A stretch of 64,000 nt of DNA. Origin: Chloroflexota bacterium. GTDB taxonomy: Bacteria; Chloroflexota; Dehalococcoidia; Lucifugimonadales; GCA-002723415. The DNA lies in contig PBKN01000001.1 of assembly GCA_002721445.1 (NCBI GenBank), positions 156,603 to 220,602 of the forward strand, in the 5' to 3' direction. The notes under the pieces were generated by a model. That model did no database searches and was not told the DNA's origin. It worked only from the letters and a program-made list of their open reading frames with translations. The position numbers were made by a program, and so were the translations under genes. Of the stretch, positions 4,930 to 59,766 are shown one piece after another (within the stretch, counting starts at the first letter, position 1; each line of letters opens with the position of its first letter).

Positions 4930-7900
4930 TTAATTCTTGTGTTTTATTTTAGGTATTTCTAATTCGTTTACAATACTATTAAGTGCTTCTAGATCATTTT
5001 GCAAAATATATTCAATATTTTTTATCTGTTGATCAATTTTACTAGAAATTTCTTCATATACTTTTTGAGCTTGTAATGTTGGTGCTCCATCAGCGAGTCC
5101 TATGCTATCACTTAATTGACCTAGCCTATTGACTAAACCTCTATCTTTAAAGGAGCCTCTTTTAGAGTTGCTTTCTTGATCTATATCAGCATTTCTTAGG
5201 AGAATTGTTTCTATAGTGGAAATCTTTTCATTTATATCCAGTATTGGTTGTTCTAATATATCTTTTTGCTGATTATTACAATTATTTAACCAATTTTCAG
5301 ATTGAGATTTAACGTTTAACAATTTGTTTAATCCATCACTTGAATCATTAATTTTATCCCAAATTTGTTTCATAATATCAAATTGCATTTTAATATCTGC
5401 TTCTGTTGCAGTAGATCTAGGGTCTTTATGTATTGTAAATATCTCAGTGAGTTCTTGCTTGCCGGTGTTTATTTTTACTTTGTAGTCTCCAGGTGGGGCA
5501 AATAAATCCACTAATCTACGACCATCTATACTTTTACTTCCTATACCAGAAGGGTCTGGGTATCTCATATCCCAAATAAAGCGATTTAGCCCTTGAACCA
5601 AATGAACATTTGAATTTTGATTATTGTTAGAATAAGTATTAATTTCTTTGCCTTCATTATCTAATATAGTTATTTCTAATAGTTCAGACATATTATTATA
5701 AAAATTGATTACAACTCCATTTGGAGGGTTATTACCTGAATCAAGATAGGTTCTTTTTATTTCACCCTTAGAGTTTTTTTCTGATATAAATGTTGAAAAA
5801 ACTCCTAGTGTTAATAAATATGTTTTCATTCCTGTCGATTTATGATTCATATTAGCCATTTTATGGTAAAAAGATGGAGGATATATGTATCTAGTGGTTG
5901 TACGGGGTTTAAAAAGAGTAATTGCTTGATTAATATTTTGTTTGTCTATTTGGTGTAAAGGAGATAAATCATCTAGTATCCAAATAGCTCTTCCATGAGT
6001 AGCAACTACTAGGTCTAAATCTTTGACTATCATATCGTGTATAGGTACTTTAGGTAAGTTAAGTTGAAGTGATTCCCAAGTTTCTCCATCATCAAGTGAT
6101 AAATATACGCCTCCTTCAGTACCTGCATATAACAAACCTTTTCTACTAGGGTCATGCCTTATAACTCTTGTAAAATCTATATCACGTATTCCATTTATTA
6201 TAAGAGTCCAAGACCTACCGTAGTCATTAGTTTTAAATAGGTAAGGTTTGTAGTCCCCATGCTGATAACTAGTTACAGCAATATATACAGTAGCAGGGTC
6301 ATGGCTTGAAGGTTCTATAGAGCTTACTAGAGACCATTCTGGTATATTAGGAGGAGTCACGTTTTCCCAAGTTTGGCCACCGTTTTGAGTAATATGAATT
6401 AGGCCATCATCTGATCCTGCCCATATTAATCCAATATTTAATGGAGATTCAGCTATTCTACTTACAGTACATCTTTCGAAAGGAGCGATATTTGTATCTG
6501 GGTTAATATTTTCTTTTTCATCTAGATCATTTCTAGTTAGGTCTGGGCTTATAGGTTGCCAGCTATTCCCTTCATCAGTTGATCTAAATACTACATTAGC
6601 AGCAGAATAAATAACTTCTGAGTTGTGAGGAGATAAAGCTAGAGGGCAATCCCATTGGAATCTATATTTTTTATTTTTAACAGTTAATCCTATAAGGTCT
6701 GGCCAAACTGTTACACTTTTTTGTTCACCAGTTTTATGGTCGTATCTAAGAATAATTAAACCTGCTCCTGGAGAGCTTCCAATAGCACCTCCGTATACTA
6801 TATTACTATCTTCAGGATTGACTATTATATGTCCGCTTTCAGAACTGCCAACATTGTAGCAATCCTGCCAAAGTATAGCTCCAGAGTTAGATCTACTAGG
6901 TATACTTATCGCAGTATTATCTTGTTGTGTAGCATAAATTCTATATGGAGTTTGGTTATCAGCCGTAAGGTGATAGAATTCGGCAGTTGGTTGGTTATTA
7001 ATAGTTGACCAAGAAGCTCCTTGATTAAAAGATACAGATGCTCCTCCATCATGTCCGTTGATCATGCGATTAGGATTTCTAGGGTCTATCCATAAATCAT
7101 GTTGATCATAATGAGTTGTCTCAAGTAATTCGAATGATTTACCTGTATCAATTGATTTCCAAAACATATTAGATAGTATGTATACAGTATTAGGGTCTTT
7201 TGTATCAGCAAATACATGGTTGTAGTAATGAGGTCTTGTAGTTAATATTGCGTTATTATTTACAAGTTTCCATGAATTTCCATAATCTTTAGATAAAAAT
7301 AGTCCACTGGTTTGGCTATTATTATCATTATTTATTTCAGCTATAGCTTCTGAATCACATGTATCAAATAGAGCCCAAACCATACCTGGTTGAATGCCAG
7401 CTGATACACCTATTTTCCCTTTAATGGTATTACCAAGCCCAGGGTTTTTAGTTAAATCTATCCATGTTTCACCACCATCGTCTGATCTGTAGAGACTAGT
7501 ATCTTCTCCTCCATTATATGTATTCCAGAAATTACGTTGAGTTTGCCACATACTAGCATAGATTATTCTTGGGTTATTTGGATCTATAGATAGGTCATTA
7601 CATCCTACGTCATCTTTTCTAAATAGTACTTGTTTCCATGTTTTACCACCATCTATAGATTTATAAACACCTTTGTCTTTACGTGGACCTTCTAGATGTC
7701 CTAGAACTCCAGCATATACTATATCTGGATTAGTAGGATGTATTCTTATTCTAGAAATATGTTCTGATGTTTCTAGACCTATGTTTGCCCATGTTTTACC
7801 TGCATCAGTTGATTTATAAACCCCATCAGCTTGAGAAGTCCAATGTAATCTTGGTACAGCAGTACATGCTTCTCCCATGCCTACATATAGAATATTTGGG

Positions 7901-54816: not shown

Positions 54817-54908
54817 TAACTAGCGATATAATTATAAAAAATATTCTTTGGAATATCTTTTAGAATTTTTTTTTTAAAAATAAGATTTTCGAAGATAGGG
54901 GGAAAATA

Positions 54909-55769
54909 ATGCGTTTCTATAGTAAAGCATTGAGTTTAACTATTTCATCCATATTGGTACTTGCTGTAATAGCTTGTGCTGGACCTGCTGGAGCTGCTGG
55001 AGCTGCTGGTCTTCCAGGAGAACCTGGTAATCCAGGTAATCCAGGACCTGCTGGACCTGCTGGAGCTGCTGGGCCACAAGGAGAACCTGGTCTTCCAGGT
55101 AATCCAGGAGAGCCAGGTAACCCAGGTAATGCTGGACCAACTGGACCACAAGGACCTGCTGGGGCAGATGGTCAATCTGGATCAGCTAGCTTATACACAA
55201 CTCATTCTACAATGACTGTTGATGATACTTTTACAGTTTGGGGATCTGGATTCAATCCAGGAGAACCAGTGATCATTCAGATTAAAATTGATCAAACTAT
55301 ACAACCTATTTTAGGTACTTTAACTGCGAATGCATCTGGAGGAATTTCTGGAACATATGATGGATTAAAGCAGGAAGATGGTGTTGACGCAAAAGCTCAA
55401 GGTGGCATAAGAAGTCTTGTTGCTGTAGGAGCTGATGGTAGTCATGCTAGTACACCTGTTAATGTAGTTAAATCAAGAGTTCATGCTCCTAATGTTGATA
55501 GTAGTTTGACTTCTGTTACAGTTGCTAAAGGAAATACTGTTACTGTTAAAGGTGCAGGATTTAAAGCAAATGAACCTGTAACAATTTCAACTAGAGCTAC
55601 ACTAACAACTGGTGGAGATAGTATTTGGAAAGGTCAAGATGCTAATGCCTATGGTGCATTTTCAGCTGATATTTCACCTGATTTAGAAGTTGGTGTTTAT
55701 ACATTGCAAGCAAATGGATCACATGGATCTAGTGCTACAGCAATATTGACTATCACTGCAACAAAATAA
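54909..55769 (+). CDS. Collagen-like lipoprotein with two C-terminal beta-sandwich repeats
   Basis: A 286-residue exported protein. The signal ends at the lipobox VIAC (Cys23). Residues 25-93 are 23 uninterrupted Gly-X-Y triplets ([18 protein letters not shown] and so on), enough for a short collagen triple helix. Two related modules follow: [19 protein letters not shown] (about 97-190) and [19 protein letters not shown] (about 197-286). Their G-x-GF-x-x-x-EPV pattern resembles IPT/TIG-type Ig folds. GGGGGAAAATA precedes the ATG, and a terminator follows. It is probably a trimeric cell-surface stalk with adhesive or binding heads (inference). The Gly/Pro composition makes the region GC-richer than its surroundings. 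Confidence 0.85.
54981..55187 (+). repeat. Gly-X-Y coding repeat (23 triplets)
   Basis: A 207-base stretch of degenerate 9-base units beginning with GGA, GGT or GGG and encoding collagen triplets. Longer blocks recur, for example the codons for GEPGNPGN and GNPGEPGN, which suggests growth by duplication. No interruption or frameshift is present. Confidence 0.9.
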
Positions 55770-55795
55770 AGCTTATATAATTAAGAATAATTTAA

Positions 55796-55835
55796 TAGAA
55801 GTGGTCATCTCTGTATGACTGCTTCTATTTTTTTT
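55796..55835 (+). terminator. Intrinsic terminator after the collagen-like gene
   Basis: The arms TAGAAGTGGTCAT (55796-55808) and ATGACTGCTTCTA (55815-55827) form a 13-pair stem containing two G-T pairs around a six-base loop, followed by eight T. It starts 27 bases after the lipoprotein stop codon, closes that unit and separates it from the MFS gene. Confidence 0.88.
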
Positions 55836-55861
55836 ATGAATAAATTAGTTGATTATCTTTC

Positions 55862-57148: not shown

Positions 57149-58405
57149 TTAATTGCTTCTATTTTCGAGAGAAATTTTTAACTTTTTTAATCTTCTACCA
57201 ATTGTAGAAATAACTTCTATATTTATTCCTTTATAATTGATTTTCGAACCTGAACTTGGTATCTTTCCCATTTGACTATAAACTAATCCTCCAACTGTAT
57301 CAAAACCTTCTCCTTCAAATGATGTACTTAAAAGAGCATTAAGTTGTTCAATACTTGTTCGAGCATCAATAATAAATTCACCTGAAGAATCAAATAATAT
57401 TTCAGGCTCAATAGTGTCAAATTCATCTTGAATTTCACCAACAATTTCTTCAAGTAAATCTTCTATAGTTACTAAACCTGATACTCCACCATATTCATCA
57501 ACTACTATAGCAAGTTGGACTCTTTGGTTTTGGAACTCAGTTAAAAGTTCTTCTAAAGTTTTAGATTCAGGTATAAAATATGCTGTTCTTAATAAGCTAT
57601 CTACTGCATTTTCTGCTTTATTTGGATTTTCAGATATAATTTTTAATATATCTCTTGCATATGCTATTCCAATAATATGGTCTAAATCTTCTTTATAAAT
57701 TGGAATTCTACTATGACTATCATTAACCATTTGTGTAGCAATATCTTTAATAGATATTCCTGATGGAGAGGATACAATGTCTACTCTTGGAATCATAATT
57801 TCACGAGCTACAGTAGTATCTAATCTTACAACTGCATGTATCATTTGAACTTCTCTTTCGTCTAAAGGTTCATTTGATGCCTCGACTGGTAAATCTATTT
57901 CAGTAGATATAAATTCAGGATTAGAATTATTATCATTGAAATATTTGTTATTATTTAATTTATGTTTAAGAATTATGATTGGGTTAATAAGATATGCTAT
58001 TTTAGATAAAATATATAAAGATTTTCTAGGATCATGGTCTTCTTTTGAATTTATTTTGAAATTAATAATTAATTTTATAGTATTGATTATTATGAATATT
58101 ATTATTGTATATATAGGAATTAAATATAATAGATTATTCGAATTTATAGAATAAATGGAAATTATTGTTCCAATTAATAGTACGATTATTACATTTAATA
58201 ATATTTTAAAAGGTGTGACTGGTGATAAATATAAAGAAGTAATTTCTTTAAGTGAGTTTAGTTTTTCATTTTCTTCAGATATTAATTTTTGTATTTGATC
58301 TTTCTTAATTAACTTAATTTTTGTTTCTAAAATGGATATAATAATAAAAATTATACTTAATGAAATTGCTATTGATAATAGAATAAGTGTTGTTAAATTA
58401 ATAAT
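57149..58405 (-). CDS. CNNM/CorC (HlyC/CorC) family membrane protein, probable ATT start
   Basis: A membrane protein with an N-terminal DUF21-like region of about four hydrophobic segments (the Ile/Leu-rich stretch at residues 4-28, PFKILLNVIIVLLIGTI, LIPIYTIIIIFIIINTI, AYLINPIIILKH). The CBS pair follows (HSRIPIYKEDLDHIIGIAYARDIL and LAIVVDEYGGVSGLVTIEDLLEEIVGEI), then the CorC_HlyC domain (EGEGFDTVGGLVYSQMGKIP). Family members act in Mg/Co transport. The frame is open from the stop at 58415-58417 to 57149, but the first conventional start is an ATG at 57844 that would delete every membrane helix. ATT codons at 58405 and 58402, next to AGGA at 58413-58416, give about 418 residues, the family's normal length. 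The gene starts at the glmU stop. Confidence 0.82.
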   Translation of the reverse strand: MINLTTLILLSIAISLSIIFIIISILETKIKLIKKDQIQKLISEENEKLNSLKEITSLYLSPVTPFKILLNVIIVLLIGTIISIYSINSNNLLYLIPIYTIIIFIIINTIKLIINFKINSKEDHDPRKSLYILSKIAYLINPIIILKHKLNNNKYFNDNNSNPEFISTEIDLPVEASNEPLDEREVQMIHAVVRLDTTVAREIMIPRVDIVSSPSGISIKDIATQMVNDSHSRIPIYKEDLDHIIGIAYARDILKIISENPNKAENAVDSLLRTAYFIPESKTLEELLTEFQNQRVQLAIVVDEYGGVSGLVTIEDLLEEIVGEIQDEFDTIEPEILFDSSGEFIIDARTSIEQLNALLSTSFEGEGFDTVGGLVYSQMGKIPSSGSKINYKGINIEVISTIGRRLKKLKISLENRSN

Positions 58406-59766
58406 TATTTTTTCCTATCACTGTTAAGATTTTTTATTTTAGCAGGTATTCCTATTGCTATATGATTAGCAGGTACATTTTTTGTAATTACTGAACCTGC
58501 AGCTGTTTGAGAGTTTTCACCTATTTTAATTGGTGCTATTAGCATTGTTGATGAGCCAATAAAACATTTATCACCTATTATAGTATTATTTTTATTTTTT
58601 CCGTCATAATTACATGTGACTGTACCTGCTCCAATGTTAACATTACGTCCCACAGTTGCGTCTCCAATATAACTAAAATGTGCAGACTTACTTCCAGTTC
58701 CAATTTTACTATTTTTTATTTCACAATTGTTACCAATGTGAACGTTATCCATTATTTTTGAATTATTTCTCACTAATGAAAAAGGGCCAATTTTACATTT
58801 GTTTCCAATAGTAGATTCATTAATTATTGAATTTTGTATAATCGAATTATTACCTATTTTTGAATTTAATATTGTTGTATTTGGTCCAATTTGTGAATAG
58901 TTGCCAATATTTGAATTACCTAATATATGAGTATTAGGTAAAATTGAACAATTAATATTTATAACAGAATCTAAATCTAAATAAACTGAATTTGGATCTA
59001 TGACACTTGTACCTCTTAGCATAATGTTTTCTAATAGATTTTTTCTAACTATTTCGTTTGCTTTGGATAAATCTGACATATTATTAATTCCAATGCCTTC
59101 ATTATAATTATCAAGTTCTATAGAAGTAATAGATTTTGATTGACTATTAGCTATATCGATAATGTCTGTTAGTAAATATTCTTCATTATTCAATTTAATT
59201 TTTGAAATATTGTTATAAAGCCATTTTGAATTAAAAAAATAAACACCAACATTGATTTCTTTAATATTGGTTAATATAAGATCATTAATATTTTTTTCTT
59301 CTACAATATTTGTTATATGGTGTTTAGATGATCTTATTATTCTACCTAATCCTTTTGGATTTTCTTTATATGACGTGACTAAGCTGATTTCAGATTTAGA
59401 ATTTATATGTTTATCGAATAATTTATCTATTGTGGCTGAAGTTATAAGAGGGACATCAGCATATAAAACTAAAGTATTTATTGAGTTATTTATTTCTGAT
59501 TTAGCTTTTATTAAAGCACCTGAAGTTCCATCAGCTGTGTTTTGTTCAATAAATTTTATATTTTTATTATTTATTGAATTAACAATCTCTTTAGAATTAG
59601 GTGGAATTATTACATAAATTTCATTGACTTTAGTTTTATCCAAAGTATCTATTAATATACGCAACATCTCTTTACCACAAATTTTATGAAGTGGTTTGGG
59701 TATAGTAGAATTCATTCTAGTACCCATGCCAGCCGCTAAAATGATTGCTATATTGCTATGTAACAT
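58405..59766 (-). CDS. glmU: Bifunctional UDP-GlcNAc pyrophosphorylase/GlcN-1-P acetyltransferase
   Basis: Makes UDP-N-acetylglucosamine for cell-envelope synthesis. The N-terminal uridylyltransferase has ILAAGMGTRMNS, PKPLHKICGKEM, VLYADVPLI and NEGIGINNMSDL. The C-terminal left-handed beta-helix acetyltransferase has many hexapeptide repeats (IGNNSIIQNS, IGNKCKIGPF), SAHFSYIGDATVG, GAGTVTCNYDGK and AAGSVITKNVP. A length of 453 is typical. The 3' end carries the AGGA used by the downstream CorC gene, so the two are coupled. The start ATG lacks an evident ribosome-binding site. Confidence 0.96.
   Translation of the reverse strand: MLHSNIAIILAAGMGTRMNSTIPKPLHKICGKEMLRILIDTLDKTKVNEIYVIIPPNSKEIVNSINNKNIKFIEQNTADGTSGALIKAKSEINNSINTLVLYADVPLITSATIDKLFDKHINSKSEISLVTSYKENPKGLGRIIRSSKHHITNIVEEKNINDLILTNIKEINVGVYFFNSKWLYNNISKIKLNNEEYLLTDIIDIANSQSKSITSIELDNYNEGIGINNMSDLSKANEIVRKNLLENIMLRGTSVIDPNSVYLDLDSVININCSILPNTHILGNSNIGNYSQIGPNTTILNSKIGNNSIIQNSIINESTIGNKCKIGPFSLVRNNSKIMDNVHIGNNCEIKNSKIGTGSKSAHFSYIGDATVGRNVNIGAGTVTCNYDGKNKNNTIIGDKCFIGSSTMLIAPIKIGENSQTAAGSVITKNVPANHIAIGIPAKIKNLNSDRKK

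Follow-up and report, generated by a model that had tools for sequence, protein, structure and literature searches.

A collagen-stalked lipoprotein conserved in SAR202-type Chloroflexota and its possible role as an S-layer pillar

What is a lipoprotein with a collagen stalk and two Ig-like heads doing on a bacterium of the SAR202 type? The question is raised by a gene at positions 54909-55769 (+ strand) of the window, that is, the whole stretch of 64,000 nucleotides that was analysed. The open reading frame begins with ATG, encodes 286 amino acids and is a real gene. Little is known of the SAR202 bacteria, which abound in the dark ocean, and those bacterial collagens that have been characterised are mostly adhesins or spore fibres. 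We propose that the protein is a core surface lipoprotein of SAR202-type Chloroflexota and that it may act, by analogy with SlaB of Sulfolobus, as a trimeric pillar or tether of about 20 nm for the S-layer, a reading to which we assign a probability of roughly 0.4.

Several lines of evidence make it highly probable that the protein has a surface architecture consisting of a lipid anchor, a collagen stalk and Ig-like heads, as the first-pass annotation had concluded for what it took to be a surface protein of a marine bacterium. First, residues 1-22, which end in ..LAVIA, read as the type II signal peptide of a bacterial lipoprotein with the lipobox VIA-C23, and Cys23 (codon 54975-54977; signal peptide and Cys together 54909-54977, + strand) is the probable lipid acceptor, judging from the lipobox, its conservation in the family and the presence of the genes for both Lgt and LspA, which process lipoproteins, in the host genome. 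Second, 23 unbroken Gly-X-Y triplets (residues 25-93; 54981-55187, + strand) run from Gly25, one residue past Cys23, to a closing ...GADGQSGSA, just as had been described. This run is far above chance (p ~4e-23 per start at the Gly content of the remainder of the protein) and matches Pfam Collagen (PF01391) with E = 1.1e-14 and 54.3 bits (cut-off 27.2), the only Pfam match in the protein. Third, the head of 193 residues holds two copies of a G-x-GF-x-x-x-EPV module, and this motif pair, which had also been singled out, coincides with two beta-sandwiches in an AlphaFold2 model computed from 23 sequences (mean pLDDT 85.7, pTM 0.56), the strands of which lie in head residues 3-95 (module 1, 55188-55466, + strand) and 112-192 (module 2, 55485-55766, + strand).

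Foldseek matches the modules to many Ig-type folds, with a bacterial adhesin extender (6xi3) as the best match and JAM, PECAM and the S-layer protein 7ptp among the other early ones. We claim the Ig fold for each predicted domain singly, as the TM-scores of the whole pair are low, presumably through variation at the hinge. The modules share the Ig-like beta-sandwich and the G-x-GF turn with the bacterial Ig-like domains Big_6, TIG and GxPGS, and the family gives weak profile matches to all three (PF17936, PF01833 and NCBIfam NF058592, respectively). The window protein itself reaches no curated cut-off in the Ig-like families, and the TIG label that it had been given falls away, PF01833 scoring 11.6 bits against a cut-off of 20.9; no existing family names the module pair. 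A similarity to titin (phmmer E 5e-7) was rejected, since it is inflated by repeats, with best single stretches at E 0.04, and reflects the Ig fold only. Some relatives bear an additional head: L030:1141-2943 (601 aa) encodes an RCC1-repeat propeller (PF13540, 3e-52) behind the two Ig modules of the same lipoprotein, and L033:1132-2286 encodes a similar RCC1 version that stops after the first repeat.

The gene was said to have its own promoter and terminator, and the second half of this statement stands. A 15-bp stem followed by a T-run at 55794-55836 (+ strand; -18.5 kcal/mol, z = -5.1) forms an intrinsic terminator and marks the gene as a unit of its own, whereas promoter consensus sites are at chance level, with 7 found and 7.4 expected from shuffled sequence. 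The first-pass annotation did not include the ribosome-binding site, a G-rich AGGGGG that lies at 54897-54902 (+ strand), 6 nt upstream of the ATG. It is invariant across 17 aligned leaders, the other positions of which vary, and a conserved leader structure was discarded as a candidate because these leaders have no conserved sequence upstream of AGGGGG. The sequence AGGGGGTCARATG, at 54897-54911 of the window, is also found in the leaders of most orthologues. The site is specific to the family: GGGGG lies ahead of 24 of 26 family genes as against 12 of 185 neighbouring genes, and of 20 exact matches to the 13-mer AGGGGGTCARATG in 98 genomes, 12 lie at the start of this gene, with a single occurrence of the reversed control. 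At L019, L020, L024 and L026 the two-module gene has no G-rich start site, and at L022 and L035 the site belongs to a short gene and the two-module gene is without it. We infer that AGGGGGTCARATG pairs with the usual anti-Shine-Dalgarno through one G-U wobble; it could be a wobble-containing Shine-Dalgarno or the binding site of a translational regulator. The start site may be a sign that translation is high or under special control, and the strength and family specificity of the ribosome-binding site suggest high output. Leader variants proposed for comparing translation output are AGGGGGTCAAATG and AGGAGGTCAAATG.

How widely is this protein kept? The host genome (1.71 Mb, 99% completeness; GC of the window 30.5%) belongs to SAR202-type Chloroflexota, which bears out the marine assignment made earlier, and its size and GC agree with those of streamlined SAR202 (PMC11994032). 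Head homologues come from genomes of the same order, 55 of 98 of which are matched by a single-protein query and 76 of 98 by a profile of 18 heads. Of the 50 good genomes in the order, defined by a completeness of 90% or more and a contamination of 5% or less, the same profile matches 40, and about one-fifth have no homologue detectable with it. The window head alone gave no match in named genomes; an alignment of 18 heads is too diverse for a pattern search, and a tighter alignment found named relatives, which carry the labels SAR202 cluster, Dehalococcoidia or Chloroflexi MAG. In 201 genomes from across the phylum, other proteins, mostly longer ones, also contain the Ig module, and a collagen-bearing member was found in only one of 19 loci fetched from outside the order (L089, 211 aa, from another Dehalococcoidia lineage). 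Thus, the combination of lipobox, collagen and Ig modules is characteristic of SAR202-type bacteria. Some members of the order keep nothing but short versions with one module, or versions that are secreted and lack collagen, and L109 and L112, both of this order, have lost the lipid anchor together with the collagen. The link to phage that had been drawn from the stalk-plus-head design did not hold up: a phage or viral origin was rejected given zero sequence matches in viral contigs and phage records, and the neighbours of the gene are chromosomal housekeeping genes.

The host's own contig C13 encodes two further collagen lipoproteins in tandem (L037:4182-5861 and 5866-7290, - strand; 559 and 474 aa), which have long Gly-X-Y stretches and heads of ~45-residue repeats (SLDTTGNVGLYTSVTIGADGLGLISYYD..LKVAHCSN) that are perhaps beta-propellers. 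Counting the window gene, the host has no fewer than three collagen stalks, and their heads are of two kinds. Arrays in which two or three collagen lipoproteins lie in tandem, their Ig modules differing in number, are found at L019, L020, L022, L024, L026, L035, L096, L106 and L110.

Conservation of the stalk had been named beforehand as a point on which the reading would stand or fall. In a set of 76 related proteins of the group, 69 contain collagen, taken as at least 8 uninterrupted triplets, and 7 are without it; the reading has thus largely withstood this check. The longer members (at least 240 aa, mostly two-module; n = 49) have a median of 20 triplets with an interquartile range of 18-22, and the short members (n = 20), which are often in tandem with a longer gene, have a median of 18. 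This narrow spread of stalk length fits a spacer. Furthermore, the stalk goes together with the lipid anchor. The lipobox Cys stands directly before the collagen in 67 of the 69 collagen-bearing members and is lacking in 6 of the 7 members without collagen (present in 1), an association with a Fisher p of 9e-7 when kin sequences are counted as independent, and the distance from Cys to the first Gly is 1 in 49 of the 67 members that have both. One of the two exceptions, L107, is a lipobox protein with interrupted collagen. The other, L064:7449-8243 from Chloroflexi bacterium SB0664_bin_6, has 42 triplets and is anchored not by a lipid Cys but by a transmembrane helix.

Two sets of close orthologues, with Gly columns set by one reference, show amino acid changes in 2 of 42 Gly columns and in 34 of 84 X/Y columns (p = 1.6e-5), and 35 of the remaining Gly columns show synonymous change only. 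The DNA has thus diverged while the glycines were kept, which in these alignments indicates that the Gly columns are under purifying selection. Such strictness at Gly next to variable X/Y positions would be pointless if the lipoprotein were a monomer and its Gly-X-Y segment a simple spacer, flexible or polyproline-II, that never forms a triple helix. That reading draws on the shortness of 23 unhydroxylated triplets, on the lack of a recognisable trimerisation domain and on the host genome, in which the one prolyl-4-hydroxylase-type family searched, PF13640, is missing; on this single-family result we also rejected prolyl hydroxylation of the stalk. Non-hydroxylated bacterial collagens other than this one nevertheless form helices (PMC8968730), and the Pro content of the stalk in the family, 28% in X and 41% in Y, is collagen-like, and we consider a monomeric spacer improbable. 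The stalk differs from other bacterial collagens at the Y position, where it has 4% Thr as compared with 31.6%; human collagens have 33.5-42.2% Pro/hydroxyPro (PMC8968730), and with 41% Pro the Y position of the stalk is therefore nearer to animal collagen. If triple-helical, its 69 residues would span ~19.7 nm at 0.286 nm per residue.

The surroundings of the gene are conserved as well. The order is prfB, a solute-binding protein, dppB, dppC, a 5'-3' exonuclease-like gene and the collagen gene, followed by convergent corC and glmU; the transporter genes and corC were checked with Pfam, and the names prfB, exonuclease and glmU are what we take these genes to be from reading their sequences. 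Among the 20 loci whose flank is long enough, 19 have glmU on that side, often accompanied by the dpp operon, the exonuclease and corC. Given its place just downstream of the genes for the solute-binding protein, DppB and DppC in the window and in many relatives, the protein could be a display or scaffold lipoprotein for nutrient capture that holds binding domains or partner enzymes near the adjacent dipeptide ABC transporter. The ABC operon is, however, missing beside the gene at L053, L055-L057 and L059 while glmU remains, for which reason the dpp transporter was rejected as a fixed partner, and above cut-off the Ig heads have no match among carbohydrate- or peptide-binding families; a role in nutrient capture seems very unlikely to us. 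The divergence of the head is close to that of its housekeeping neighbours (head and GlmU, 45.9% / 50.9%; head and CorC, 53.6% / 52.3%), and the transporter diverges more slowly than the head. The closeness to GlmU and CorC argues that the protein is not a hypervariable adhesin, and the locus has the look of a core region passed on vertically rather than of a cassette. The CorC/HlyC-like gene itself (57149-58408, - strand) has 419 open codons with the first ATG, GTG or TTG near codon 190, and its probable start is a non-standard codon, either ATT or ATA, that overlaps the glmU stop.

Where would such a protein sit? Searches of the host genome found neither Omp85 nor a penicillin-binding transpeptidase, whereas among 14 control genomes the same searches were positive in 7 and 10, respectively, and cultured SAR202 are monoderm, with no peptidoglycan genes and an S-layer-like coat (PMC10444878). 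Therefore, the lipoprotein should be on the outer face of a wall-less cell with a single membrane. Additionally, SAR202 have been reported to carry slaA/slaB-like S-layer genes (PMC11994032), and in Sulfolobus the membrane stalk SlaB is a trimer whose Ig-like domains are directed toward the SlaA canopy (PMC10903991). It is the combination of wall-less cells and a protein coat, as reported for cultured SAR202, that leads us to suggest an S-layer pillar. The protein would be exported and would receive its lipid at Cys23 in the only membrane of the cell, and three chains would then wind into a collagen triple helix, the trimer being assumed and the AlphaFold model being that of a single chain. 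Each trimer would have three lipid anchors and a stiff rod of ~20 nm that bears six Ig-like domains outward. Less certain than this is the role of the rod as a pillar or tether by which the distance from membrane to S-layer would be set, with the Ig heads in putative contact with the coat. The full picture of a SAR202 envelope resting on collagen pillars, in which the stalk length of lipid-anchored trimers is the ruler and the Ig heads dock the coat, is more tentative still and somewhat doubtful. The likeness to SlaB consists of a membrane-anchored stalk, outward Ig-like domains and a wall-less, S-layered cell, and it is one of working only, with no homology claimed. In SlaB a coiled coil is used, and a transmembrane region is predicted (PMC10903991), whereas the SAR202 protein has an N-terminal lipid and collagen, and the coiled-coil stalk and transmembrane helix of the SlaB type are both lacking from the window protein.

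The main rival to the pillar role is that of an adhesin in the manner of streptococcal Scl1 or Legionella Lcl, in which the collagen rod would push the Ig heads through or past the coat and so let them bind particles, polysaccharide or other cells. The fixed locus across the order and a divergence like that of housekeeping neighbours speak against it, as does a stalk length that is neither expanded nor widely variable. On the other hand, stalk-plus-head collagen-like proteins are adhesins of pathogens (PMC3022705; PMC11162425), and the tandem Ig modules resemble extender domains, 6xi3 being a repeat of a large adhesion protein. The extra RCC1 heads on some relatives point the same way, and in the L030 group the RCC1-like propeller looks like the display of a binding head, which counts against a pillar, as do the share of good genomes without a homologue and the short or collagen-free versions. 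Overall we regard an adhesin as unlikely. The first-pass annotation had suggested particle attachment or scavenging; order-wide presence, fixed synteny and housekeeping-like evolution fit an envelope part better than an accessory of this kind, and we tentatively favor the S-layer pillar.

Collagen-like proteins of bacteria, including the predicted collagen-bearing lipoproteins Bucl3 and Bucl8 (PMC4565658), are already known. Scl1 and Scl2 of streptococci, BclA of Bacillus spores, Lcl of Legionella and the Bucl set of Burkholderia have in common with the SAR202 protein perfect Gly-X-Y repeats, a globular end and a location at the surface. Unlike in these proteins, the SAR202 collagen begins one residue past the lipid Cys and carries twin Ig-like heads, and the family is order-wide and syntenic. 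Full-text literature searches returned no paper that links collagen-like proteins with SAR202. What is new, and undescribed in searchable papers, is thus a collagen lipoprotein with its own conserved leader that is kept across an order of wall-less marine bacteria.

We know of no mechanism by which the wall-less cells of SAR202 anchor their coat. The order-wide collagen protein is a concrete, testable candidate for this function, and, if the proposal is true, collagen would serve as a standard part of the envelope in free-living bacteria.
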